DNA of 64,000 nt from Beroe forskalii (Eukaryota > Ctenophora > Nuda > Beroida > Beroidae): assembly GCA_011033025.1 (NCBI GenBank), contig WFMF01000098.1, forward strand, positions 372,001 through 436,000. Direction: 5' to 3'. Under the pieces are notes generated by a model that did no database searches, was not told the DNA's origin, and was given only the letters and a program-made list of their open reading frames with translations. This document shows positions 6,101-54,742 of the stretch, piece after piece. Positions within the stretch are counted from its first letter, which is position 1, and every line of letters begins with the position of its first letter. Made by a program: the position numbers and the translations under genes.

Positions 6101-9100
6101 AAAAGGAAGGTTTTTAAAGGGGACATTTATAATTAGAATTATTAATGTTCCCTATTAATGTTCCCTATACTCCCATACAAGTTTTATAGGGAGTTTTATA
6201 GGGTGAGTACTGAGTACTTGAGGAGGACGTTTAGTTTTCTTTAGTAACCAAAAACCTTCCCTATTTAAAAGGAAGGTTTTTATAGGGGACATTCATAATT
6301 AGAATTATTAATGTTCCCTATTAATGTTCCCTATAAAAGTTTAATAGGGAGTTTTATAGCGATGGGTATTTTAGTATGCTTATAGTGTAAAACCTATCCC
6401 AATTCCCTACTATTCGGATCCCTGATTAGAAAATTCATATGATATCAACAAAAGGAAACAAATAGCCCGAATGCACAAAAACTCAAATAAACGAATTGAA
6501 TTAGAAAAGTTCATCTTGGGTGTCTTGAAATCACTGGGTGAAGCTTGCCTGATTGTGTGTCTCTAATTCACTGAGTGAAGCTTGCCTGATTGGGATAGAC
6601 AGTTCCCCACTCCTCCTCTTCTTCAGTTTATTCCATGGCTTCTGTTCCTGGCACCACATCATCTTCGTTAGTATCTGGCTGAACCTCGTGATCCTCTATT
6701 CCGTCGTAGTCACAGCATGAGAACCAGAATGTGTCCTTAACGACGAACTTGCAGCCGAAACTCACGGCGGATTTGTCATTTACCTGCGAAGGAGGGGGGT
6801 TAAATTATGGAATAGATTTGCGGAGTTAGTTTCAATTAGGCCTTCCTGGTGCTCGTTTCTGACTATCAAAGGCATAATTGAGCTATATTGCGCACTTGGC
6901 ACCTACACTTCCAGCAAGTTTCACAGTTTCCGGCACTTACGCTTTCAGCAAGTTTTACAGTTTCCGGCACTTACGCTTTCAGCGAGTTTCACAGTTTCGG
7001 GCACGAGAGTGTTCTTGACAAACTTCACTTTGTTGCCCTCCTTGAACTCCAAGCAGAGTGTACCCATGCTGGGGGCTACCCCGTCACAGTTATCATTAGC
7101 CTCAGCGAGCCCCTTGCACCTGCAATGGTTTCTTTAGTTCTTTGTATTCGTAACTGAGTAAATCAATATTTCATACTATTGAAACAAATTTTAAAACAAT
7201 TCCAATTTTATTTTATTTTCAGCGAAGTGTCGGATACTAAATTTTGTCGTCATACTCGATATAACTGCAATTTTGTGAAAAATGTATGGTGTTTTTGTAA
7301 TTAATTATTTTCGCCCCAAAATGCCCACCTGTCCTCAGCGTCATGTCTAAGATCGTTGTTCCATCCCGCAAAACCGAGGTCCTTATGTCCGTCCAGGGTT
7401 CCGTGGTGGTAGTTCTTCCCCACAGCGAAGCCCTCCGCAAGACCGAGCACCACGGCAGACACCAGAAGAAGTTGCATCTTGTAGAGTGAGATAGATTGAG
7501 ATAGAGAGAAGTAGATTGTCAAACGAGTTGTGGAATGAGTTAGAGAGAAATGGAGGGGTTTTTTTATAGTTAAGTATGGATCATGACACACAATTGAATA
7601 TAAATTGTCAACACCCCGATGATTGTTTGGGTGTTGTAGGACATTTTGTTCAAGTATTGTTGAAATTTGTGTTATAATACGACTGAAGATCCTCGCAAAA
7701 TTTATAGTTATTAGTTGAGTAACTTGAGGACGCCAGTTTCTGCAGTTTCAAAAGACTTAAAAGGTAGTATTTCTGGCGGCAGTGACCGTTGGGATTGTTT
7801 CTTTAGTTGTGCTATGGTTCATTTTGGGGAAATATTCCAATATATCTGCATCGAGGAAAGTCCGTACTTACAATTGAAAAGTGAGCACTATCTCAAGTCC
7901 CTCCAATGTCGTTAGTGCTACCTATAACACATTGTTAAAATGTGTGTTACAATTGTTAAGAGATGTTTTAGAGTTTTAGAGCCATATTAAGTTATCCTAC
8001 AGTCTACAAACCCATTTAAGCAGTCTGCAGTGGGATATTTTTTTTTTATTAAATTGCCACACCTTGAAGATGCTATAGCTCAGAAATTTGTGTTATAATA
8101 CGACTGAAGATCCTCGCAAAATTTATCGTTATTAGTTGAGTAACTTGAGGACGCCAGTTTCTGCAGTTTCAAAAGACTTAAGGTAGTATTTCTGGCGGCA
8201 GTGCCCCTTGGGATTGGTTCTTCAGTTGTGCTATGGTTATGAGCACTCTCTCAAGTCCCTCTAATGTCTCTAGTGCTAACAATTAACACATTGTTAAAAT
8301 GTGTGTTACAATTGTTAAGAGATGGTTTAGCTCCATAGACCAATTTTAAGTGGTCTGCAGTGGGATATTCTTCATGAAATTGTCATACCTTGAAGATGCT
8401 ATAGCTCAGACATTTCTATTTCTGGGAATTTATTATTTGGAAAGGGTTCAACACTACTTGATCAAAGCCTAACATCCATGTTGGTTACAGTAATCCAATA
8501 CTAGTGGGCCATTAAGAAAAAATGGCGTGCGAAATCCAAAAAGACGCTTAAAATTGTCTTGTAATTGTGGAATTAATTACAACAATTTCCAGGGGGAATA
8601 CAACTCTTATAAATTACCTTGTGTGTGATTGAATCACTAACAATTGATAAACAATTGATTTAGAAAATCACTGTTTCATTGATAAGACTTCTTCCATAGC
8701 TGCCGAACTGCCCTCCTTTTGGGAGGGCGCCCTCCCATGCCCTCCACTTGCCCTCCTTTTGGACCTTGCCCACCTTTTTGGAGAGCAAATCTGAAAATTT
8801 ACTCAAAATTCTGGAAATTTACCCAAAAAGCACTATCTCGGATCACATTTTTAGTCGTTCCCTAAAAAAAAGGTCACCAATTTCCGAAAATCTACCTACT
8901 AAGCACTATCTCGGATCAATTTTGAAAATTTACCTATCGAGCACTATCTCGAATCAATTTTAAAAATTTACCTACTGTACTGAAAATCGAGAAATTTACC
9001 TTAAATCATAAAAATTTACCTAAAAATCTGGAAATTTACCTAATAAGCACTATCTCGGATTGCGTTTTTGAGGCGTCGACCAAAAAAAAAAAAAAAAAAA

Positions 9101-9976: not shown

Positions 9977-23531
<13,555 letters not shown>

Positions 23532-26814: not shown

Positions 26815-27912
26815 TCAGCCCAACCTGCACTCCTTATCTTTAGAACTCTTGTCTACTGGCTCCAGACGTCCCCAATTAGTGGCACTGTCCCACAAGCCGC
26901 AGGTAGGCGCCGTTCTGTCGTAAAACAAATACCCGTCCTCGCCCCAGTCATCTCCCCAGGAGTTCCGGATAATGTACGCCTGCTTATTGTACCCTACGAA
27001 CACCATGGCGTGGTCTGCTGTCTCTTTACACGCCCCCACCGGCGTGAACAGCCCTGCTTTGTACTTCTCTAACTTGGTGTGCTTGGAGTCCAGTCCCGTG
27101 CCGACAGGACCATTACAGATGAGTTTCTGGAACATTTCCTGGTCCCAGCTAACCCTCCCTCGCCAAGCCAGCCGGTATTTGGCTAGGGCGTTGGGGTGCG
27201 ACTGAGCTTTCTTGCACTGTCGGTCTGAGAACACCCAGTTGACGGGGTTGTAGCTGGTCTTTTTCTCGGGGCACGCCTTGTCGGTTGCCAGTCTGCCGGT
27301 GTCGTAGACGTATTTCAGGGCATCCTGCACTCTTCCCCCCGAACCTCTGAAAGTCTTACCATCCTTGTACACGCATTGGTGCAGTTCCTCGATAGAAAGG
27401 CCTTCAAACCTACCCTCGTAGTAAGCTCGTTGCGTCTCTAGAATCACTACACTGGCGTGGGCCCAGCAAGTCCCTTTGATCTGGTTGTGTATCGGCCCCA
27501 GCAACTTCCTATCCCTCCATCCGTCAAATTGCTCCGGAGCATTGAACTTATTCCACTCGAGAACATCCGGCAACCCCTCCAAAGTGTTGCCCTCCTCAGT
27601 TCCGTTTGGTGCCGTAGCACTCATTAAATTCCGCTCTTCTTCCGTCATGTCCGCCATGAAGTTAATCCCTGCCGTCCATGTGAGATCAGCCCTGTTTCGC
27701 AACTCCAGAACCTCCTTTATCTCCTGGAGGAAGAGCTCCAGCCGGACGGGTTTCTGGCATTTCGGACGGTAGTGTCCGTGGGTTTCAAGGTACTCTGTGT
27801 AGAGGGTGTGGAGTTCCTCGGCGTCCTGCACGGCGTCCTGGAGACGGTCTGTTGAGTGGTGATCCGAGAGGAGGAGACCTGGAAGGAGGAGTGATAGAAG
27901 TGGGACGAACAT
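26815..27912 (-). CDS. papain-family (C1A) cysteine peptidase, intact
   Basis: A single-exon ORF of 365 residues. Signal peptide MFVPLLSLLLPGLLLS; an inhibitory I29-type propeptide with the TAGINFMADMTEEE motif (residues about 80-95); mature enzyme starting near residue 130. Active-site residues are all present: oxyanion Gln in HNQIKGTCWAHA, catalytic Cys in TCWAHA, His in DHAMVFVGY, Asn in RNSWGDDWG. TCWA replaces the usual SCWA. The protein should be secreted or lysosomal and activated by propeptide removal. Lack of introns next to a multi-exon relative at 1.2-2.8 kb suggests a retrocopy or a lineage with intron loss; the ORF is fully open, so it is probably functional. Confidence 0.93.
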   Translation of the reverse strand: MFVPLLSLLLPGLLLSDHHSTDRLQDAVQDAEELHTLYTEYLETHGHYRPKCQKPVRLELFLQEIKEVLELRNRADLTWTAGINFMADMTEEERNLMSATAPNGTEEGNTLEGLPDVLEWNKFNAPEQFDGWRDRKLLGPIHNQIKGTCWAHASVVILETQRAYYEGRFEGLSIEELHQCVYKDGKTFRGSGGRVQDALKYVYDTGRLATDKACPEKKTSYNPVNWVFSDRQCKKAQSHPNALAKYRLAWRGRVSWDQEMFQKLICNGPVGTGLDSKHTKLEKYKAGLFTPVGACKETADHAMVFVGYNKQAYIIRNSWGDDWGEDGYLFYDRTAPTCGLWDSATNWGRLEPVDKSSKDKECRLG

Positions 27913-40184: not shown

Positions 40185-40615
40185 AATAAGCGGTTACATG
40201 TCAAAGTGGTGACCATATACCGCAACTTACATGGTCGAGGAGACAGCTGAGACTATGTAAGTTGGATAATGGACGAGGCGTGCCGAGTTCATTATCGTAG
40301 GTATATGGTCGTAGCTGAGATCATGGAACTGGATTATACCCCAACCCAAAACAGCTAGGACTGACTATTCTATGGCCAAACAACAGTATTTCTTCCCACT
40401 TGGGTCTGACGACCCTCATCCAGATTCTTCCTGACAGGTGACTGCTGGTGGCTACACCCCGCATGCTGCCGCTGTGTGCTGACTGCCTGGGAGGCGGCTC
40501 ACTCTGCTAATCTCGTCCATCCCTCTGATGTGCACATCCCTGCGCCCCACGAGACTCATCCCTCTGACTGCCCCCTGGTGCATCCCAATCCGGACTCACC
40601 CTGTCAACATCAATC

Positions 40616-42124
40616 ATGGAAGTTACTAACCTAGAAACTTACGAAAACTTAATTAAGGAGACTCAAGACATCGATTTGCTCATCAAATTGATTAAGGTCA
40701 TGGAAGACAGGGTTGAGCATCTTTCCAACCCTGGGACTGACGAGGAGGACAACTCAGACGGTCAGATCACTGAGTCTGAGTCTGAGGAACTACCATGCCT
40801 GGACGTGTCACCCCCTCAGATGAGACAGCTGCATGACTTCGTCCAGTTTTCAGAGAACCTGGACTGGATTAGTGGGGACCTTGAGGAAGAACTGCTCAAT
40901 GAAGTAAGGGGTCTCTTTGTTGGCTGTGACAATGGGCAGCTGGGCTACAAGTGGTTAGCCAGGTCAGATCAGCCCTATAAGTTCGGAGGCACCCAACATC
41001 AAGCCTCCCCCATCAACTCCTACCCTCAGATAGATATGCTGATGAGGACACTTAACAGGACCATGGACACTAGCCTGGACTGTTGCCTTGTGTCCTGCTA
41101 TCAGGGAGGAGGTGCTCAGGTCAAACCGCACCAGGACAATGAAAGGGTCATTGATCAGCAGCACCCAATCTGCAATGTTTCACTGGGTGCCTCGAGATCC
41201 ATAGACTTCTACGATCTCACTAGCAGTGCTCCGATCATCACACAGGAGCTGAAGCACAGATCGTTGCTGGTCATGTCTCCTGGGTGCCAGAGCAACCTGA
41301 GACATGGGGTGTCTAGAACAGACACAGGCTCAACGGGGGCTACCAGGTGGTGTCTCTCTTTCAGGAGGCTTGCGGCATCTGACCAAGAGGAACCCCAGGT
41401 CAGTGGTGAGCAGCAGCAGGAGCCACCTATTGCCACACCAGCCTCGCAAGGTGACAGCCAAGCAGACCCCAGTAGGATACCCCTACCAGTGACCAGACGG
41501 GCCATCGTCCCTGCCTTCTCCAGGACTAATGGCAGGAGCCAGGTGGTTTCGATGTCAGAGGTCCCCGAACACCTGATCATTGGGGATTCACTGACTCGCG
41601 GCATCAACATCGCCAACTGCCTCACCATCACCAGAGGAGGAGGAGAGATACCAGACATCATCCTGATGCTACAGGACAACCGGGACGAGCTGCCAGTCTC
41701 AGAGTACGGGCGAATCAAGTCGGTGACGGTATGTGTAGGTACCAATGACCTCAGTGACCTAAACCTATCGCAGCTTAAGATCATGAACGAATATAATAGA
41801 CTTATTAATGAGCTTTTAAAATTGTTCCCTAATGCACGCATCATGATCTTCAATGTTCCCCCTAGAATTTGCCACAGGTTCAATCACCTAGTCAGAATTA
41901 AGTCTTTCAATAACTTTCTGTTTGATTTAGAAATTTCTTTTCAAAGGGTAAAGTTAATTAATGTCTTTTACCAGTATCTGCAGCCTAATGGATTCATTGA
42001 TTTAGGTTTCTTCGTTAGAGATGGGTTGCACATGAATGAGCGTGGTAAGAAACTGATGAAGGAACACATAAGTAGGCATCAGGCAGAACCCTGTGGATAT
42101 CGACCATTTTTAAATGGGCATTAA
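40616..42124 (+). CDS. LINE ORF1: AlkB-like dioxygenase fused to SGNH hydrolase
   Basis: An open 502-residue ORF from ATG 40616. The N-terminus (residues 1-75) is acidic and coiled-coil-like. Residues about 75-250 form an AlkB-like 2-oxoglutarate/Fe(II) dioxygenase: iron ligands H172 and D174 in VKPHQDNE, H230 in LRHGVSR, then TRWCLSFR, matching the conserved C-terminal arginine motif. SLGASRSIDF also fits the family. A Gln/Ser/Pro-rich linker follows (about 255-310). Residues about 318-495 form an SGNH/GDSL hydrolase: IIGDSLT (Ser about 325), VGTND, and DGLHMNERG (Asp/His about 468-471). ORF1 esterase domains are known in CR1/L2-type LINEs; the AlkB half is unusual. AlkB proteins remove alkyl groups from nucleic acids, so repair or demethylation of the element RNA or cDNA is a natural but untested idea. 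All visible catalytic residues are intact. Confidence 0.85.
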   Translation: MEVTNLETYENLIKETQDIDLLIKLIKVMEDRVEHLSNPGTDEEDNSDGQITESESEELPCLDVSPPQMRQLHDFVQFSENLDWISGDLEEELLNEVRGLFVGCDNGQLGYKWLARSDQPYKFGGTQHQASPINSYPQIDMLMRTLNRTMDTSLDCCLVSCYQGGGAQVKPHQDNERVIDQQHPICNVSLGASRSIDFYDLTSSAPIITQELKHRSLLVMSPGCQSNLRHGVSRTDTGSTGATRWCLSFRRLAASDQEEPQVSGEQQQEPPIATPASQGDSQADPSRIPLPVTRRAIVPAFSRTNGRSQVVSMSEVPEHLIIGDSLTRGINIANCLTITRGGGEIPDIILMLQDNRDELPVSEYGRIKSVTVCVGTNDLSDLNLSQLKIMNEYNRLINELLKLFPNARIMIFNVPPRICHRFNHLVRIKSFNNFLFDLEISFQRVKLINVFYQYLQPNGFIDLGFFVRDGLHMNERGKKLMKEHISRHQAEPCGYRPFLNGH

Positions 42125-42287
42125 ATTATTAAATTATTGAAATTTTTCTCTTTAATCTATGATGTTGGTGGTGGGGTGTTTTCGGACTTGGCTACTAGGT
42201 ATCTTCAGTGGTAAATCTTAAAATGAACTAAATTGCTTTTGATACTCAGGTAATCCTGCCCCTTCATTATCAACTGGCTCAACCATC

Positions 42288-44515
42288 ATGGGAGTTTCAG
42301 CACAACATCACAGGCAGGTGACAGGTTTATTCGGAGGAGGGACAGGCCAAAGGAGGAAAACGCAGGATCCTGTAAGTACTTTTTTATCTTACTCTACAAT
42401 TTTGCAATGTATTAGCCTCTCTGCAATTATTAGGCTCATGGAAAATAATGAAAAGCAAGCAAATTGTCTTAGCGAAAATTTGATCTCGGGAGGTGTTTCT
42501 TTATTCTTAAGTCTATTTTTACTCCTACTTAGCTTTACCATTCTAACAGTCAATTCCAGCGACTACCCAAACCGATTAATCAAACAAGTTGCGTTTAAAG
42601 CGGTCGATAGTCAACTATATCTTCTTAATTCGGAAACTAGGATCCTGGTGAACTGGGCTGTCTTAATGACTGTTCTATCAAATAGACTATTTTGTAATTT
42701 ACTGCCGTTTCTAGTTAACAAATCGTCGTCCTACTACCTGAATATATACCAGTATCCACTGTTATATCGACTTCGTCTGATTCGTGTGAAACTTAGGTCT
42801 AAGAATCTAAATATTTCATCATATTTCATCAACACATGCTCGTATTATCTGACGCTCCTAAACTTGACCTTGATAGTTGTTGTAAATCCAAGTATACTTA
42901 ATCCCGGCCCAATGAGTAAAGACCTGTCTGTTGCATACTGCAATGCCCAGGGCTTTATATTGATGTCTAGCATGCGAGGAAAGCAACCAATCTTCCAGAC
43001 TCATAAATTACTTGACTTCCAAAATTTTGTGCACATGAATAAACCAGATATTGTTATTGTCAATGAATCATGGATTAATGAACATATACATAACAACGAA
43101 ATTATCGAAGAAGAATTTTATAAAATGTGGCGAAATGATAGATCTAAGATAGATAAGAAAAAGTATAACAAGGTGGGGGGAGGTGGCGTTTTTATTCTTG
43201 CTAAACAAGGACTTGATATCGAAACTAAGGAAGTTAGTGTCAAAAATCCAGATGGATTACCTGTTCTTTCGATTGAGATCAAATTTATTGATTCTTCCAA
43301 ATTATGTGTCAGTACATTTTATAGATACGACTACTCTAAAAAGGACACTTTAGACTCCATTGAAAAATATTATAGGGAATTATGTAAGAAGTACTCTAAA
43401 ATTGTCATCATAGGTGATCTTAACTTAAGCTCGGTTAAGGACTGGTCCTGCCCTATCTCTACTAACGAGCTTCACAACGATTATATCAAACTTTTCTTTG
43501 AGTTGGGTTTTCAAAACCTTATAAATGAACCTACTCATAAAGATGGAAATACTCTAGACTTACTACTTACGAACCAGCCTGGTCTTATTAAAGATATTTG
43601 CATTACCCCTGATCTAATCTGCCCTTCAGATCATTACTCTATTAAATTCAAAATAAAGAAAAACGTTAATAGGAGGAAAGTTAAAAAGCGTAGAGTGTTT
43701 AACTATAATGAAGCGAATTGGCCTGAACTTGAAAATGAACTTTATGCCCACGACTGGTCAAGCATGTTTAGAACCCTAGGAATCTCACAAGCATGGAAGC
43801 TTTTTAAATCTAAATTGGACATTGCTATGAGGAACCATATTCCTATGAAGTCCGTTAAATTTCGCATAAAGCCACCGTGGTTCGACTCCGAAATTTTTAT
43901 GATGTCTAAAAAGAAACATAAGCTTAGAAAAATTTATAAAAATCTGGATTAGATAGTGATAAAGCATGATGAATTTAAAATCAAATTCAAAAATCGAGTC
44001 CTTGAAAAGAAAAGTGATTTTATTTTAGCTGATCCATGTAATTCTGAACATGTAGGTAGCAACCAGGTCAACAAAAAATTTTGGTCATTCATCAAATCTA
44101 GTACAAAATGTGGACGCATTCCTGAATCTGTACAATATAAAGGCAGATACCGTTCTGAAACCCAGGACCAATGCGATATTTTTAACAAATTTTTCTGTGA
44201 TCAATTTTCCCAGGCAACAAATATGATATTAACACAAGATTTCCGTGCCCCTGAGGAATTCTCTCCTGCGGAAATTTTTGGCTATCTCAAGAATGTCAAG
44301 CCTAGCAAAGCCCCAGGACCGGACGGAATTAGTGGGCACATCTTGAAAAACTGTGCCGGCTCTCTGTGTTTTACCACTTGCACTACTCTTTAATAAGTCT
44401 TACCAGCTTGGAGAGCTGCCACAGGATTGGAAAAATGCTAATGTAGTACCTATTCATAAAAAAGGCAGGAAGGATGACGTTGAAAATTACAGGCCCATTT
44501 CTCTCACAAGCTTAG
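42288..44515 (+). pseudogene. LINE ORF2: APE endonuclease and partial reverse transcriptase
   Basis: N-terminus (42288-42900) has a long hydrophobic stretch (VSLFLSLFLLLLSFTILTV) and ends with NPSILNPGP just before the endonuclease. APE-type endonuclease: SVAYCNAQGF, IVIVNESW, VIIGDLNL (about residue 376), LICPSDHYSI (about residue 446). RT begins with PSKAPGPDGISG, LPQDWKNANVVPIHKKG and ENYRPISLTSL. Damage: an in-frame TAG at 43950-43952 and a frame change near 44365. After PISLTSL (about 44515) the sequence changes to another element, so the catalytic YADD region is missing here. APE plus this RT type fits the CR1/L2/Jockey assemblage; I saw no RNase H. Confidence 0.85.
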
Positions 44516-45410
44516 GGTGTGTTAAAGGCCAAAACTGCAAGTATTACCACCCGAGGATTTGCAGAGACTCACTCACCAAGCGAGAATGTTTCAACAGGGA
44601 CCTCAAATTTGATCACCTCAAATTTACCCACCCAGAAGCAAGAGGAGGCACCTCGGGGATCAGACCCACAGGTTCAAGTCAGCAAAGCTGGGCTGAAGAT
44701 GAGGTTTGACAGCTATGCCTCGCTCACGACCCCTTTTTCCACCAACCATCAAGCAGAGCTACGCCAACGTGGCTCGAGCCGCCCAACCTGTGACAGTAGA
44801 AGAGCCGAGTGCTTTTATTGCAGCTCCCTAGAACATGAAGGAGGGATCATAGGACGAATGTCGGAGAGGATACTGGGCTCAGTCGTCCTGCCTCAATGGT
44901 TCAGGAGCAGATGAGACAGTCTGCACAACCCCCTCAGCGATTCATGCCAGCACAGCCACCCACGGTCTCTAACCGGCCTCCCGACTGCACCCTTCCAGAA
45001 CCAACAGAGCTTCCCAGCTCAGTTTCCAGGCTACTTCTGCTAAACGCAAAAAGTATCTCCCGGCAACCACGGGAGACACGAGATGGAAACTGCCGTACCT
45101 CCAAAGTACCCTGCTAGAGAACAAAAGCTCCCCACCAACACTCTTCTTCAGTATCACTGAGTCATGGCTTCGCCCCCCACTTCACTGATGCACAGGTTGA
45201 AATACCGGGTTGAGCTTCAGATCAGACAGAAAGGAGCGAACAGGAGGTGGATGTATCCCTATACGTGCACAAACAGCTCACAGTTACTGGGAATACAGCT
45301 TCAGGGACAACTACAATAACTTGGTGGTTGTATACATTACATCTCTTCATAAATCTGGGGAGTTTGCCCCATCAAATTCCAAAAATATCTGGTTGAAATT
45401 TTCCCTTTAA
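44516..45410 (+). pseudogene. fragment of a different LINE (CCCH zinc-finger ORF1 and endonuclease start)
   Basis: Begins CVKGQNCKYYHPRICR, followed by a C-F-H cluster, the CCCH-type zinc finger typical of ORF1 proteins of another non-LTR clade. Downstream, in shifting frames, comes an endonuclease-like segment (LLLLNAKSI, FFSITESWL). Many frame changes; clearly decayed. The junction with copy 1 is sharp, suggesting template switching during reverse transcription or recombination. Confidence 0.6.
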
Positions 45411-48400
45411 ACTGATGGCCCCGGGGTTTTTACCCGAAAAAATAAAATTTTCTGGCCCTTTTATCAATGTCCCGAAACTTAAAATTGGAAAAAACCAAGA
45501 AACTTTTACAAATTTTAATAAAGGGAGGACGGGGTTGGAGATTTTTCCAAACCCGGGACTGACGAGAGGGACAACCCCAGACGGCCCAGATCACGGTCTG
45601 AGTCTGGGGAACTCCCATCCCCGGACGTGTCACCCCTGATAAACAGTTGCATGACTGCCCATTTTTCCCAAAAAGGAACCGGGCCCGGATTAGGGGGGAC
45701 CTTGAGGAAAAAACTGCTCAATGAAGTGGGGTCCTTTGTTGGCTGTGACAATGGGCACCCGGGGCTACGGGTTAGCCGGGGATCAGCCCCAAAGTTAGGA
45801 AACCCAACATCAAGCCTCCCCATCAACTCCTACCCTGGGAAGATATGCTGATGGGGAAACCCCTTTAACGGGACCATGGACACTACCCGGGAAACGGTTC
45901 TTTTTCCCTTTCTATCAGGGAGGTTTCAGGTTCCAAACCCCAGGACAATGAAAGGGTCTTTGGGGATCAGCAGAAACCCAATCTGAAAATGTTTCACGGG
46001 GCCCAAACCCTGACTTCTCGATCTCACTAGCAGTCCCCGATCATCACACGGGACCCAAGCACAGATCGTTGCTGGCCCTGTCTCCCGGGTAGAGCAACCG
46101 GGAGACAGGGGGTGTCTGAAAGAACAGGCTCAACGGGGGCTACCAGGTGGTTTTCTTCTTTCGGGGAGGCTTGGGGATCTGCCCCAAAGGAACCCCAGGT
46201 CAGTGGGAGCAGCGGGAAACCACCTATTGGCCACCCCCCAGCCTGGGCAAGGGCAGCCAAGCAGCCCCCAGTAGGATACCCCCCCCATGACCAGACGGGC
46301 CATCGTCCCTGCCTTCTCCAGGACAACAGGAGCCAGGTGGTTTCGATGTCAGGGGCCCCCAAACCTGATTTGGGGATTCACTGACTCGCGGCATCCAACA
46401 TCGCCAACTGCCTCACCATCAAGAGGAGGAGGAGAGATACCAGAATCATCCTGATGCTACAGGACAACCGGAAAAACTGCCAGTCTCAGAGTACCCGGGA
46501 ATCAAGTCGGACGGTATGAAAGGGTACCAATGACCTCAGTGACCAAAAACCTATCGCGGGCTTAAGATCAGAACGGAATATAAAATTTATTAATGAGTTT
46601 TTTAAAATTTTTTCCCCTAATACGCATCATGATCTTCAATTTTCCCCCCTAGAATTTGCCAAGGTTCAATCACCTAGTCAAATTAAGTTTTTCCAATAAC
46701 TTTCTGTTTAAAGAAATTTCTTTTAAAAGGGGTAAAGAAAATGTCTTTTACCAGTATCCCCAGCCAATGGATTCATTGATTTTAAAGGTTTCTTCGTTAG
46801 AATGGGGAATGAATGAGCGGGAAAGAAACTGATGAAGGAACACATAAGAAATCAGGCAAAACCCCCTGGGGATATCGACCATTTTTAAATGGGCATTAAA
46901 TTATTAAAATTAAAATTTTTTCTCTTTAATCATGATGTTGGGGGGGGGGTTTTTCCGGCCCGGGGTATAAGGTATCTTCAGTGGAAACTTAAAATGAACT
47001 AAATTGTTTTTGATTTTTGGTAATCCTGCCCTTCATTTATCAACTGGCTCCAACCATCATGGGAGTTTCAGCACAACATCCGGGCAGGTGACAGGTTTAT
47101 TGGGAGGGGGAAAGGGCCAAAGGAAAAAAACGCAGGACCCCCGGGGAAGTACTTTTTACTTGTTTAAATTTTGCAATGAAATTAGCCTTTTGCAATTTTA
47201 GGCTAAAGGGAAAATAATGAAAAGAAAAAATTGTCTTGGGAAAATTTGACCGGGGGGGTTTCTTTATTCTTAAGTCTTTTTTTACCCCCATTGGCTTTAC
47301 CATTCTAACAGTCAATTTCCCAGCGACTACCCAAACCTTTAATCAAACGTTGCTTTTAAAAGGGCCGTTAAACCATATCTTCAATTCGGAAACTGGGATC
47401 CGGGTAAATGGGCTGTCTTAATGACTGTTCATCAAATAAAACTTATTTTTAAATTTTACGCCTTTTCAGTTAACAAATCGTCGTCCATTCCCTGAAAAAA
47501 ATTAGACCCACTGTTAAAATCGACTTCGTCTGATTGTGAAAACTTGGGTTTCCAAATCAAAATTTTTTCATCATTTTCCAATCAAAAATGTATTATCTCC
47601 CCTAAACGCCCTTTTGAAAAAGGTTGTAAACCCAAAGAAGTTTAATCCCCCCAATGGTAAAGACCTGTCTTTGATTGAAAATGCCCAGGGTTTTAAATAT
47701 TGATTTTCAGCACGGGGAAAAGCAACCAATTTTCCCAGACTCATAAATTTTTGATTTCCAAAAATTTTGTGCATGAAAAAAACCAGAAAAATTTTTTTGT
47801 CAATGAATCATGGTTTAAAGAACATAACAAACAACGAAATTATCGAAGAAGAATTTTATAAAATGTAATAAAAATGGGGGATCTAAGATAGATAAGAAAA
47901 AGAAACAAAGGGTTTTGGGGGAGGTGGCTTTTTATTCTTTTAAACAAGGATTTGGGAATTAAAATTTTAAAAGTTAGTGTAAAAAAATCCAGATGGATTA
48001 CCTGTTCTTTTTGATTGAATCAAATTTATTGATTTTTCCCAAATTATGTGTAAAACATTTTATAGATTGACTATCTAAAAAGGGCACTTAGATTTCCCTT
48101 GAAAAAAATTATAGGGAAAATTTTGTAAGAACTCTAAAAATTGTCATCTGGGGGATCTTAACTTAAAACTCGGTTAAAAGGGCTGGTCCTTTCTCTATTT
48201 AAAGAAATTTACAACGATTATATCAAACCTTTTTTTTGGGTTGGGAAAAAACCCTTTTAAATTTAACCTTTTAAAGATGAAAACCCAGACTTACTACTTT
48301 CAAACCCGCCTGGCCCTTTTTAAAGATATTTCTTCCCCCCATCTAATCTGCCCTTCAGATCATTACTCATTAAATTAAAATAAAAAAAACGTTAATTTGG

Positions 48401-50457
48401 AGGAAAGGAAAAAACGGGAGAGTGTTTCTTTTAATGGGAAAAATTGGCCTGAACTTGAAAATGAACTTTATTACGACTGGGCAAGCATGTTTTAAACCCC
48501 AGGAATCTCACAAAAACATGGGAAACTTTTAAAAACAAAATTTGGGCATTGCCTGGGAGAACCCTATTCCCAAGAAGTCCAAATTAAATTTCCCTTTAAA
48601 AAAACTGTTTCGACTCCAAAATTTTTTTGATGTCTAAAAAAAAAAACATAAGCTTTGAAAAAAAATTTTAAAAACTGGGTTAAAAGTAAAAAGCCTGAAG
48701 AATTTAAAACCCAAAATTTAAAAATCAGTCCTTTAAAAGAAAAAAGGGTTTTATTTTAGAAGGCCCCTGTAAAATTTGAACATGGTAGCAACCAGGTCAA
48801 CAAAAAAAATTTTGGTCATTCATCAAATCTAGTACAAAATGTGGACGCAATTTCCTGAATCTTAAAAAATATAAAAGGCGGCAGATACCGGTTCTGAAAC
48901 CCAGGACCAATGCGATATTTAACAAATTTTTCTGTGATCAATTTTCCAGGCAAGCAATATGATATTAACTTACAGATTTCCCGTGCCCTGAGGAATTCTC
49001 TGCGGAAATTTTTGGCTATCTCAAGAATGTCAAGCCTAGCAAAGCCCCAGGACCGGACGGAATTAGTGGGCACATCTTGAAAAACTGTGCCGGCTCTGTG
49101 TTTTACCACTTGCACTACTCTTAATAAGTCTTACCAGCTTGGAGAGCTGCCACAGGATTGGAAAATGCTAATGTAGTACCTATTCATAAAAAAGGCGGGA
49201 AGGATGACGTTGAAAAATTACAGGCCCATTTCTCTCACAAGCTTAGTAATGAAAAATATTTGAAAAAGTTTACTGCAATATCCTCCATGAAAAATGCAAA
49301 GACAAATTTCTACCCTACAGCACGGCTTTTTGCCTAGTCGCTTATGCACAACACAAATGATAAATTATGTTGGCATTCTTACGTTAAATCTAAATGACAA
49401 AATATCTACTGATGTTATATATTTCGATTTTGCAAAAGCATAATTTGATAGTGTTAATCATGACATAATTTTAGAGAACTTAAATTTTCTTATGGCATTG
49501 ATGGGTACCTACTGAGATTCATTAAAGAGTATCTTAAAAGGAAGGCAACAGTGTGTATCCATTGATGGTTCTCTCTCTCAGGCATGTCCCCAGTTCTGTC
49601 TGGGGGTACCCCAAGGATCTATTTTAGGTCCACTGCTCTTTGTCTTGTTTATTAACGATATAACTGAGGTTATTGATATTTCAACCAAGATTCTTCTTTT
49701 ATGCTGATGATAAGAAAATCTTTAGGCAAATTAACAATGAACACGATCGTAATCTTGCAACAAGATATCAGCTCTCTCCAAAAGTGGGCTGAACGTAATA
49801 AGATGCGTTTCCACCTTGATAAATGCAAGGTTCTCAATTGTAAATTAAGTAATAAGGCATACAGTAATTTTGAATACTATCTCTATGATACGAAACTTGA
49901 CTATACGGATAACGAAAAAGATTTAGGAGTACAAGTTGTCCCGTCTCTAAATGGAATGCCCAGCACAAAAATTACTAAATAAGGCCAGTCAAAAAATTGG
50001 CCTTCTTAGAAGAAATTGCTCCTTCAATAGAAACACCAATCAACGTGGGAATTTTATTTTTAGCCATAATTCGGTCACAGTTTGAGCACTGTTCAAATTT
50101 GGAGGCCAGTACACAAAACAAACATTGATAAGTTTGAAGCCATGCAGAAAAGAGCCGTTAAGTGGATTTTCAGTGAAGATTTTTGCAGCTATACCAAAAT
50201 CAGAATACCTAAAAATTAAAGAATCTAGATGTCCTACCAATGAAGTACAAGTTTGATTATAATGACTTAGTCTTGTTCTATAAGATGTTCAATCATCCTA
50301 GCCCATTTTCAAGTATCCTGGATATCTAAGGAAGAAGCACCTCCCTGACCCAAAATTAACTCGATATACTAGGAGTATGTCATCATCTGATGAACTTCAA
50401 TTAGAATGCTCCATAAAACCTAGAATAGATGTTTATAAAAATTCATATTTCTACACC

Positions 50458-50598
50458 ACCAAAACCGTTGGACGGTTGGTCTAGTAACCCCCCGCTGGTT
50501 TGGATGTGATCAGCCCATTTTGTCTCTTTTCAGGTTCCGTTGTCACATCCAAACCCGCGGTTATTACTAGACCAACCGTCCAACGGTTTTGGTGGTGA
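50458..50598. repeat. fold-back unit A
   Basis: ACCAAAACCGTTGGACGG ... complement, with arms of about 55 bp around a CAGCCCATTTTGTCTC loop; near-identical to the unit at 52128-52270. Confidence 0.9.
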
Positions 50599-53980: not shown

Positions 53981-54742
53981 AATAAGCGGTTACATGTCGA
54001 AGTGGTGACCGTATACCGCAACTTACATGGTCGAGGCCACAGCCGAGACTGTGTAAGTTGGATAATGGACGAGGCGTGCCGAGTTCATTATCGAAGGTAT
54101 ACGGTCACAGCTGAGATCATGGAACCCATGGGACTACACGGCCCCCCCTTAGGGGGCCAGGCCCCCCTAGTTTTCAAAAGGCCCCCTCTAGAAAAATCTT
54201 AGGGGGGGCCTTGGCCCTACCTAAGATTTTCTCAAAAATTTGAACATAGAAAGGAAGTGAAAATTTAGGTCATTTAGACAGAAATTTTCCTGAAATTCAC
54301 CTTTTTTAGAGTTGAATCAATGAATAAAATATGATTATTGTTGTATTTCTATGCAAAAGAGTGAAAAGTAGGGCTATGGAAAATGAAAATTTGCTTATGT
54401 AAATTTTGGCCCCCCGTAGTTTTCAAAAGGCCCCCCCTAGAAAAAATCTAGGGGGGCCTTGGCCCCCACTAGCTCGAAAAAGTGTGTAATGGCATGATGG
54501 AACCGGATTATACCCCGACCGGAAACAGCTGGGACCTACTATTTTCTGACCAAACAACAGTATTTCTTCCCACTCGGGTCTGACGACCCTCGTCCGGATT
54601 CAATGCTTAAGTAGATTTTTGAGTGCTCCTTTATAAAATCAAATTTAATTTTAAGCTTTTTTGCACTGTAATTCTGTGAAGACCATATAACCAAACTTAC
54701 ACGGTTGCTAAAACAAGCTTGGGAGGGGTATAATAATGCTTA
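53981..54742 (+). mobile_element. internally deleted LINE copy 3 (5' leader joined to 3' end)
   Basis: Directly follows the 3' end of copy 2. 53981-54600 repeats the leader seen at 40185-40430 (GCGGTTACATGTC, ACGAGGCGTGCCGAGTTCAT, CAACAGTATTTCTTCCCACT). At about 54610 it passes directly to the LINE 3' end (CTTTTTTGCACTGTAATTC ... AAGCTTGGGAGGGGTATAAT), with no ORFs between. A hAT-type MITE is inserted in the leader. Confidence 0.75.
54127..54496. mobile_element. MITE with 8-bp target duplication (hAT-like)
   Basis: Flanked by ATGGAACC on both sides (54119-54126 and 54497-54504). Ends CATGGGACTACAC and, complementary from the right, CATGCCATTACAC. Two G/C-rich blocks AAAAGGCCCCCCCTAG-like lie near both ends as subterminal repeats. 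370 bp, non-coding. Confidence 0.75.

Follow-up and report, generated by a model that had tools for sequence, protein, structure and literature searches.

An ORF1 combining AlkB-like dioxygenase and SGNH hydrolase domains in a LINE of the ctenophore Beroe forskalii

Layout of the locus

We analysed a window of 64,000 nucleotides from Beroe forskalii (contig WFMF01000098.1 of assembly GCA_011033025.1, positions 372,001 to 436,000 of the forward strand), in which an uninterrupted open reading frame of 502 codons lies at 40616-42124 on the plus strand, ahead of a broken second frame and of another copy of the same region. The features are as follows.

40616..42124, plus strand: ORF1, AlkB-SGNH fusion protein of 502 aa (reading frame and Pfam; five more full-length copies in the genome)
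40631..40726, plus strand: N-terminal helices, aa 6-15 and 19-37, possible coiled coil (structural model, low to middling confidence)
40823..41377, plus strand: AlkB-type Fe/2OG dioxygenase domain, aa 70-254, with H172, D174, E176, H230, R244 and R250 (Pfam, model, alignment, dN/dS)
41381..41530, plus strand: disordered linker, aa 256-305 (pLDDT <50; dN/dS 0.68)
41528..42097, plus strand: SGNH/GDSL hydrolase domain, aa 305-494, with S325, G341, N377, D469 and H472 (Pfam, model, alignment)
42288..43952, plus strand: first part of ORF2 of the window copy, leader and endonuclease, ending at an in-frame TAG
42288..42911, plus strand: ORF2 leader of about 208 aa, containing hydrophobic segments and closing with NPGP
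43005..43634, plus strand: AP-type endonuclease (EN) domain (PF03372, E=3.3e-8)
43956..44515, plus strand: N-terminal part of the reverse transcriptase (RT), then broken off by other sequence
45524..49246, plus strand: second, error-rich copy of the AlkB-SGNH-EN-RT start (82% DNA identity to 40702-44515)
49247..50455, plus strand: remaining RT and C-terminal region with frame shifts, cut short by an inverted-repeat insertion

A preliminary description, made from the sequence alone, had read this frame as a LINE ORF1 in which an AlkB-like dioxygenase precedes an SGNH hydrolase, and the domain searches bear this out. Pfam places 2OG-FeII_Oxy_2 (PF13532) at aa 111-250 with E=1.2e-16 and 61.9 bits against a cut-off of 31.2, and Lipase_GDSL at aa 369-485 with 24.1 bits against a cut-off of 23.6, Lipase_GDSL_2 scoring 29.0 bits, under its cut-off of 32.9. 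The predicted structure contains both folds, including the double-stranded beta helix of AlkB, the nearest matches being ALKBH2/ALKBH3 and SGNH esterases, with ALKBH5 and FTO also among the fold matches. Neither a missing AlkB profile match nor a missing AlkB fold, which the preliminary description had named as refuting its reading, was seen. The motifs listed in the preliminary description all occur at the residues given there: the HxD...H iron triad is H172/D174/H230, the arginine motif RWCLSFR spans R244-R250, and the SGNH motifs are GDSLT from G323, GTN at G375-N377 and DGLH up to H472.

The ORF2 leader ends in NPG in 27 of 27 chosen ORF2s and in NPGP in 26. Canonical 2A sequences usually carry D(V/I)Ex before NPGP, whereas the residues at this place are mostly PSIV, and we did not read the leader as a canonical 2A. 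Signal sequences of 2A-like type that serve both targeting and recoding have been described, as far as the consulted part of the source shows (PMC4981915), and a hydrophobic leader with NPGP would suit a membrane-linked particle.

Other sequences interrupt or surround the element. The stretch at 44516-45400, wedged into the RT, looks by eye like another LINE-like fragment with a Cys/His-rich portion, the pieces submitted to Pfam giving no match, and 50456-50595 looks by eye like an inverted-repeat, MITE-like insertion at the break of the RT frame. A repeat is common to 40185-40427, just upstream of ORF1, and 53981-54601 (93% and 87% identity). Elsewhere in the window, 12604-19044 holds Ty3/Gypsy-type frames that match RT, RNase H and integrase, together with an 18-nt tandem repeat coding for EVEQEA-like units, and frames for papain-family cysteine proteases lie at 1204-2337 and 26815-27912 (minus strand), one of them with ShK and ephrin-receptor-like repeats.

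Dispersed copies and linkage to ORF2

The host assembly (216 Mb, 1134 contigs) contains 88 matches to P0001. They include six full-length uninterrupted copies of ORF1, 94-100% identical and located on six contigs, which answers the call of the preliminary description for further copies; the remainder comprises one partial copy (94%), copies in a degraded state and numerous AlkB reading frames of divergent sequence. Twenty genome stretches were scanned with profiles built from the alignments. In L009 and L013, ORF1 is followed by an uninterrupted EN-RT ORF2 of 1202 aa; in L010, L011 and L014 the order is the same but ORF2 is broken, and L012 carries ORF1 with no ORF2 close behind. The element copies are 92-98% identical over about 6 kb, and their homology runs through ORF1 and ORF2 and ends near 7160-7183 of the oriented L009 stretch. 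From these genome copies, it is practically certain that the frame is the AlkB-SGNH ORF1 of a LINE.

In Pfam at E<=0.001, the ORF2s of L009 and L013 matched EN and RT and nothing else, and no RNase H was found in P0017 and P0019 at E<=0.1; EN and RT without RNase H are the arrangement of the CR1/L2/Jockey superfamily. An esterase ORF1 ahead of an EN-RT ORF2, seen in the window and whole in L009 and L013, is likewise that of elements with a type IV ORF1p.

Selection was estimated from the 15 pairs of the six copies, summed although the pairs are not independent. The dN/dS ratio was 0.160 for ORF1 as a whole, 0.170 for AlkB, 0.116 for SGNH and 0.675 for the linker; both domains are thus under purifying selection.

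The linkage extends beyond these copies. Among the 14 divergent AlkB stretches, six (L018-L022 and L024) carry EN and/or RT behind the AlkB frame, and eight (L015-L017, L023 and L025-L028, with L023 and L028 near contig ends) gave neither with these profiles. At the scale of the genome, PF13532 has at least 150 matches, all above the cut-off (150 of 189 candidates scored), part of which must be cellular ALKBH genes. When these were compared with the best 150 of 2862 RVT_1 candidates, at least 28 of the 150 AlkB matches had a same-strand RT within 6 kb downstream, against 0.3 expected by chance, at distances of 2.9-5.6 kb (median 3.3); two had an RT upstream and one had an RT on the other strand. 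With scoring limited to 150 RTs, this count underestimates the pairs. Separately, L023:257-3212 (G000:C257) is a 791-aa AlkB frame with a weak PHD-finger match, overlapped by a next frame that has a PHD finger.

The dispersed copies and the EN-RT linkage place the fusion within the element, as the preliminary description had concluded, but its own reason, a second window copy preserving the region in degraded form, does not hold. The copy exists, and its differences look like read errors of homopolymer type rather than decay. Of 258 isolated substitutions relative to the first copy, 246 equal a neighbouring base, and relative to L009 the count is 238/281; real copies compared with L009 give 33-46% (L013 104/226, L010 19/58, L011 29/64, first window copy 45/105), and five runs of a random simulation gave 133-151 of 290-337. 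We therefore rejected neutral decay: differences between the two window copies are about equal over codon positions (86/96/87 in ORF1, 118/134/137 in ORF2), but the substitutions copy the neighbouring base far beyond both references. The stretch 45381-49246 is probably unpolished assembly, and a copy so rich in errors is not usable as evidence.

An AlkB domain also occurs in a DNA transposon. At L026:2177-9900 (G000:C847), a Helitron has a 2026-aa frame made of SGNH (11-170), AlkB (246-376), DUF6570 and Helitron_like_N (1752-1952), with a frame containing a PIF1 helicase behind it; among the genome's 20 Helitron_like_N matches, it is the only one with AlkB in the same frame. The 1169-aa frame of L025 is 60% identical to L026 in its SGNH-AlkB part. 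As a second Helitron it is unsupported, since it shares only the first ~400 residues with L026 and the rest has no Helitron match.

Catalytic residues and affinities of the AlkB domain

Among 5.8 billion proteins searched, 15 relatives were found, and a profile search gave 14 relatives among 7994 scored candidates, one of them new (P0137); none carries a functional name. The alignment has 16 rows (query and 15 relatives). Of 16 family members, 15 match PF13532 and 10 match PF13472 at E<=0.01. H172, D174, E176, H230, R244 and R250 are invariant in all 16 rows, and the same H, D, E, H, R and R, together with the AlkB tyrosine, are kept in 21 of 21 AlkB frames examined in the host genome. Because H172, D174, H230, R244 and R250 are kept in every row, the AlkB motifs are not due to chance. 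The 2OG-binding tyrosine is present in 15 of 16 rows (histidine in P0003). On the SGNH side, S325 is found in 15 of 16 rows, the exception being P0016, which has no SGNH domain; G341 is kept in 15/15 rows and D469 in 12/15. N377 and H472 are each kept in 15/15 rows, counts that include chance residues of P0016 and of P0015, respectively, the latter ending inside the SGNH domain. From its residues and the selection acting on it, the AlkB domain is very likely to be catalytically competent.

For 12 rows, leaving aside the incomplete P0006, P0011, P0015 and P0016, mean pairwise identity is 0.38 in AlkB, 0.44 in SGNH and, from 46 of 66 pairs, 0.18 in the linker; for aa 3-38 it is 0.35. AlkB and SGNH distances are correlated across these rows (Mantel r 0.79, p 0.0001). 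When the ORF1 and ORF2 alignments were run against collections of viral contigs and genome contigs, no relatives turned up. Contig sizes of the 16 ORF1s were compared with those of 120 of the 442 ORF2 relatives, and no ORF1-ORF2 pair emerged, the nearest sizes being 4978 and 4977; the P0009 contig (6417 nt) could hold an ORF2, and none of that size is among the 120 listed.

Taken as a single sequence, ORF1 has ALKBH2 (1.5e-4) and E. coli AlkB (~9e-4) as its best solved relatives. The family profile matches ALKBH3 (1.3e-15), ALKBH2 (9e-15), E. coli AlkB (3.7e-6) and a DNA 6mA demethylase (1.9e-4), and ALKBH5 and FTO are absent from its 39 matches at E<=0.1. ORF1 is thus like ALKBH2 and ALKBH3 in fold, in the HxDxE...H and R-x5-R motifs and in sequence profile, the invariant E176 aligning with the E of the HxDxE shared with both. 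It differs in the Asn-x-Tyr of ALKBH2/3, which serves 2OG binding: the position two before the tyrosine is S in 10 rows, T in four and A in two, with no Asn in the 16, and T in nine, S in eight and N in four of the 21 genome frames. ALKBH2 and ALKBH3 are cellular repair enzymes that act on m1A and m3C, and the profiles point to this type of repair over m6A, making the m6A marks also proposed in the preliminary description a less likely target. A tree of 31 AlkB rows is unrooted and contains no outside AlkBs, and is therefore silent on the origin of the domain.

Possible roles and comparison with known systems

The protein is an esterase-type ORF1p with AlkB set between the N-terminal helices and SGNH, belonging to one member of a large AlkB-bearing LINE set in this genome. 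We propose that the ORF1p would multimerise through its N-terminus, that the AlkB domain would bind element RNA and/or new cDNA and clear it of methyl lesions on the Watson-Crick face (m1A, m3C), at which the reverse transcriptase would otherwise halt, and that the SGNH domain would tie the particle to lipids. Reverse transcriptases are stopped by methyl groups on the Watson-Crick face, so that the likeliest role would be to bind and repair the RNA or cDNA of the element, and we lean, with some reserve, towards removal of m1A/m3C-type lesions from element nucleic acid by the LINE AlkB. Against this reading stand the replaced Asn before the 2OG tyrosine (absent from the 16 rows, present in four of 21 genome frames), the eight of 14 divergent stretches that gave neither EN nor RT with the profiles used, and the additional fold matches to FTO and ALKBH5.

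Other readings were weighed against this one. The frame might be a host gene that chances to precede a LINE, as some AlkB matches of the genome have no EN/RT nearby by the profiles used and the 150 must include cellular genes; this reading is all but refuted by six full-length copies that are nearly identical yet lie at different loci (a whole ORF2 following two of them), by homology that runs to a shared 3' end and by 28 AlkB-RT pairs in a single orientation among the best 150 RTs. It is unlikely, though deserving of consideration, that AlkB is an m6A/6mA eraser that evades surveillance by removing a host mark from the RNA or DNA of the element. The same was proposed for an orchid Ty3/Gypsy AlkB with in vitro activity, according to the part consulted of PMC9289625; a 6mA demethylase is among the sequence matches (1.9e-4), ALKBH5 and FTO are among the fold matches, and the uptake of the domain by a DNA transposon, the Helitron, would agree with a mark on DNA. 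The profile is nevertheless ALKBH2/3-like and free of ALKBH5 and FTO at E<=0.1, E176 falls on the E of the HxDxE of ALKBH2 and ALKBH3, and the m6A writer METTL3 helps, rather than hinders, human L1 in the portion seen of PMC7873242.

We also regard as rather improbable that AlkB is mainly a structural nucleic-acid binder replacing the RRM or zinc knuckle of other ORF1ps, with catalysis secondary. Esterase ORF1ps do miss a known RNA-binding domain (PMC3905857, in part), but the H, D, H, R and R metal/2OG residues are invariant in 16/16 rows and 21/21 genome frames and therefore exceed what binding alone would require. The lesion-repair proposal retains a binding function: the domain would offer an answer to which part of esterase-type ORF1ps binds nucleic acid, and the LINE might use it to bind its RNA or DNA, or to clear them of lesions, while copying itself. 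AlkB could also be a standard tool of transposable elements here, in a radiated LINE set (in ORF1, mostly with SGNH) and in the SGNH-AlkB polyprotein of the Helitron, two element classes that would erase a host methyl mark or a copying-blocking alkyl lesion; we hold this wider proposal a little short of even. If true, LINEs and one Helitron carrying their own AlkB would point to methyl marks or alkylation damage as a genuine obstacle that transposition faces in this host.

The ORF1 types named in the consulted part of PMC4120745 are esterase, PHD, RRM and zinc-knuckle. The esterase type, with ZfL2-1 as an example, has a coiled coil followed by a linker and an SGNH domain that binds lipids, and no structural RNA-binding domain is known in it (PMC3905857, part consulted). 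The words AlkB, 2OG and oxygenase are absent from the main text of PMC4120745, as are AlkB and dioxygenase from that of PMC3905857, and the portions consulted of these two papers and of PMC9289625, PMC7915175, PMC12846837 and PMC4981915 report no AlkB in a LINE ORF1. None of the open-access papers listed by our searches appeared to contain such a report, in keeping with the preliminary description's view of the layout as non-standard; what is already known, from the part of PMC9289625 consulted, is AlkB in an orchid retrotransposon.

By the portions seen of PMC3905857 and PMC4120745, the Beroe element resembles CR1/L2 LINEs with a type IV ORF1p, such as ZfL2-1, in its N-terminal helices, linker, C-terminal SGNH domain and EN-RT ORF2, and differs from ZfL2-1-like ORF1ps by an extra whole AlkB domain at the position of the linker, between helices and esterase. 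Plant RNA viruses (flexi- and closteroviruses) also have AlkB in the replication protein of a parasite, and their domains are among the fold matches to the ORF1 model; there, unlike here, AlkB sits in RNA virus replicases. Viral AlkB domains demethylate RNA in vitro, and so does the AlkB of the Phalaenopsis Ty3/Gypsy element, on m6A (PMC9289625, consulted in part). That orchid element, likewise a retrotransposon encoding AlkB, is the nearest precedent; as described in the same portion of that source, it is of the plant LTR type and carries AlkB in an additional ORF, with no SGNH fusion described, whereas the Beroe LINE carries AlkB within ORF1, fused to SGNH.
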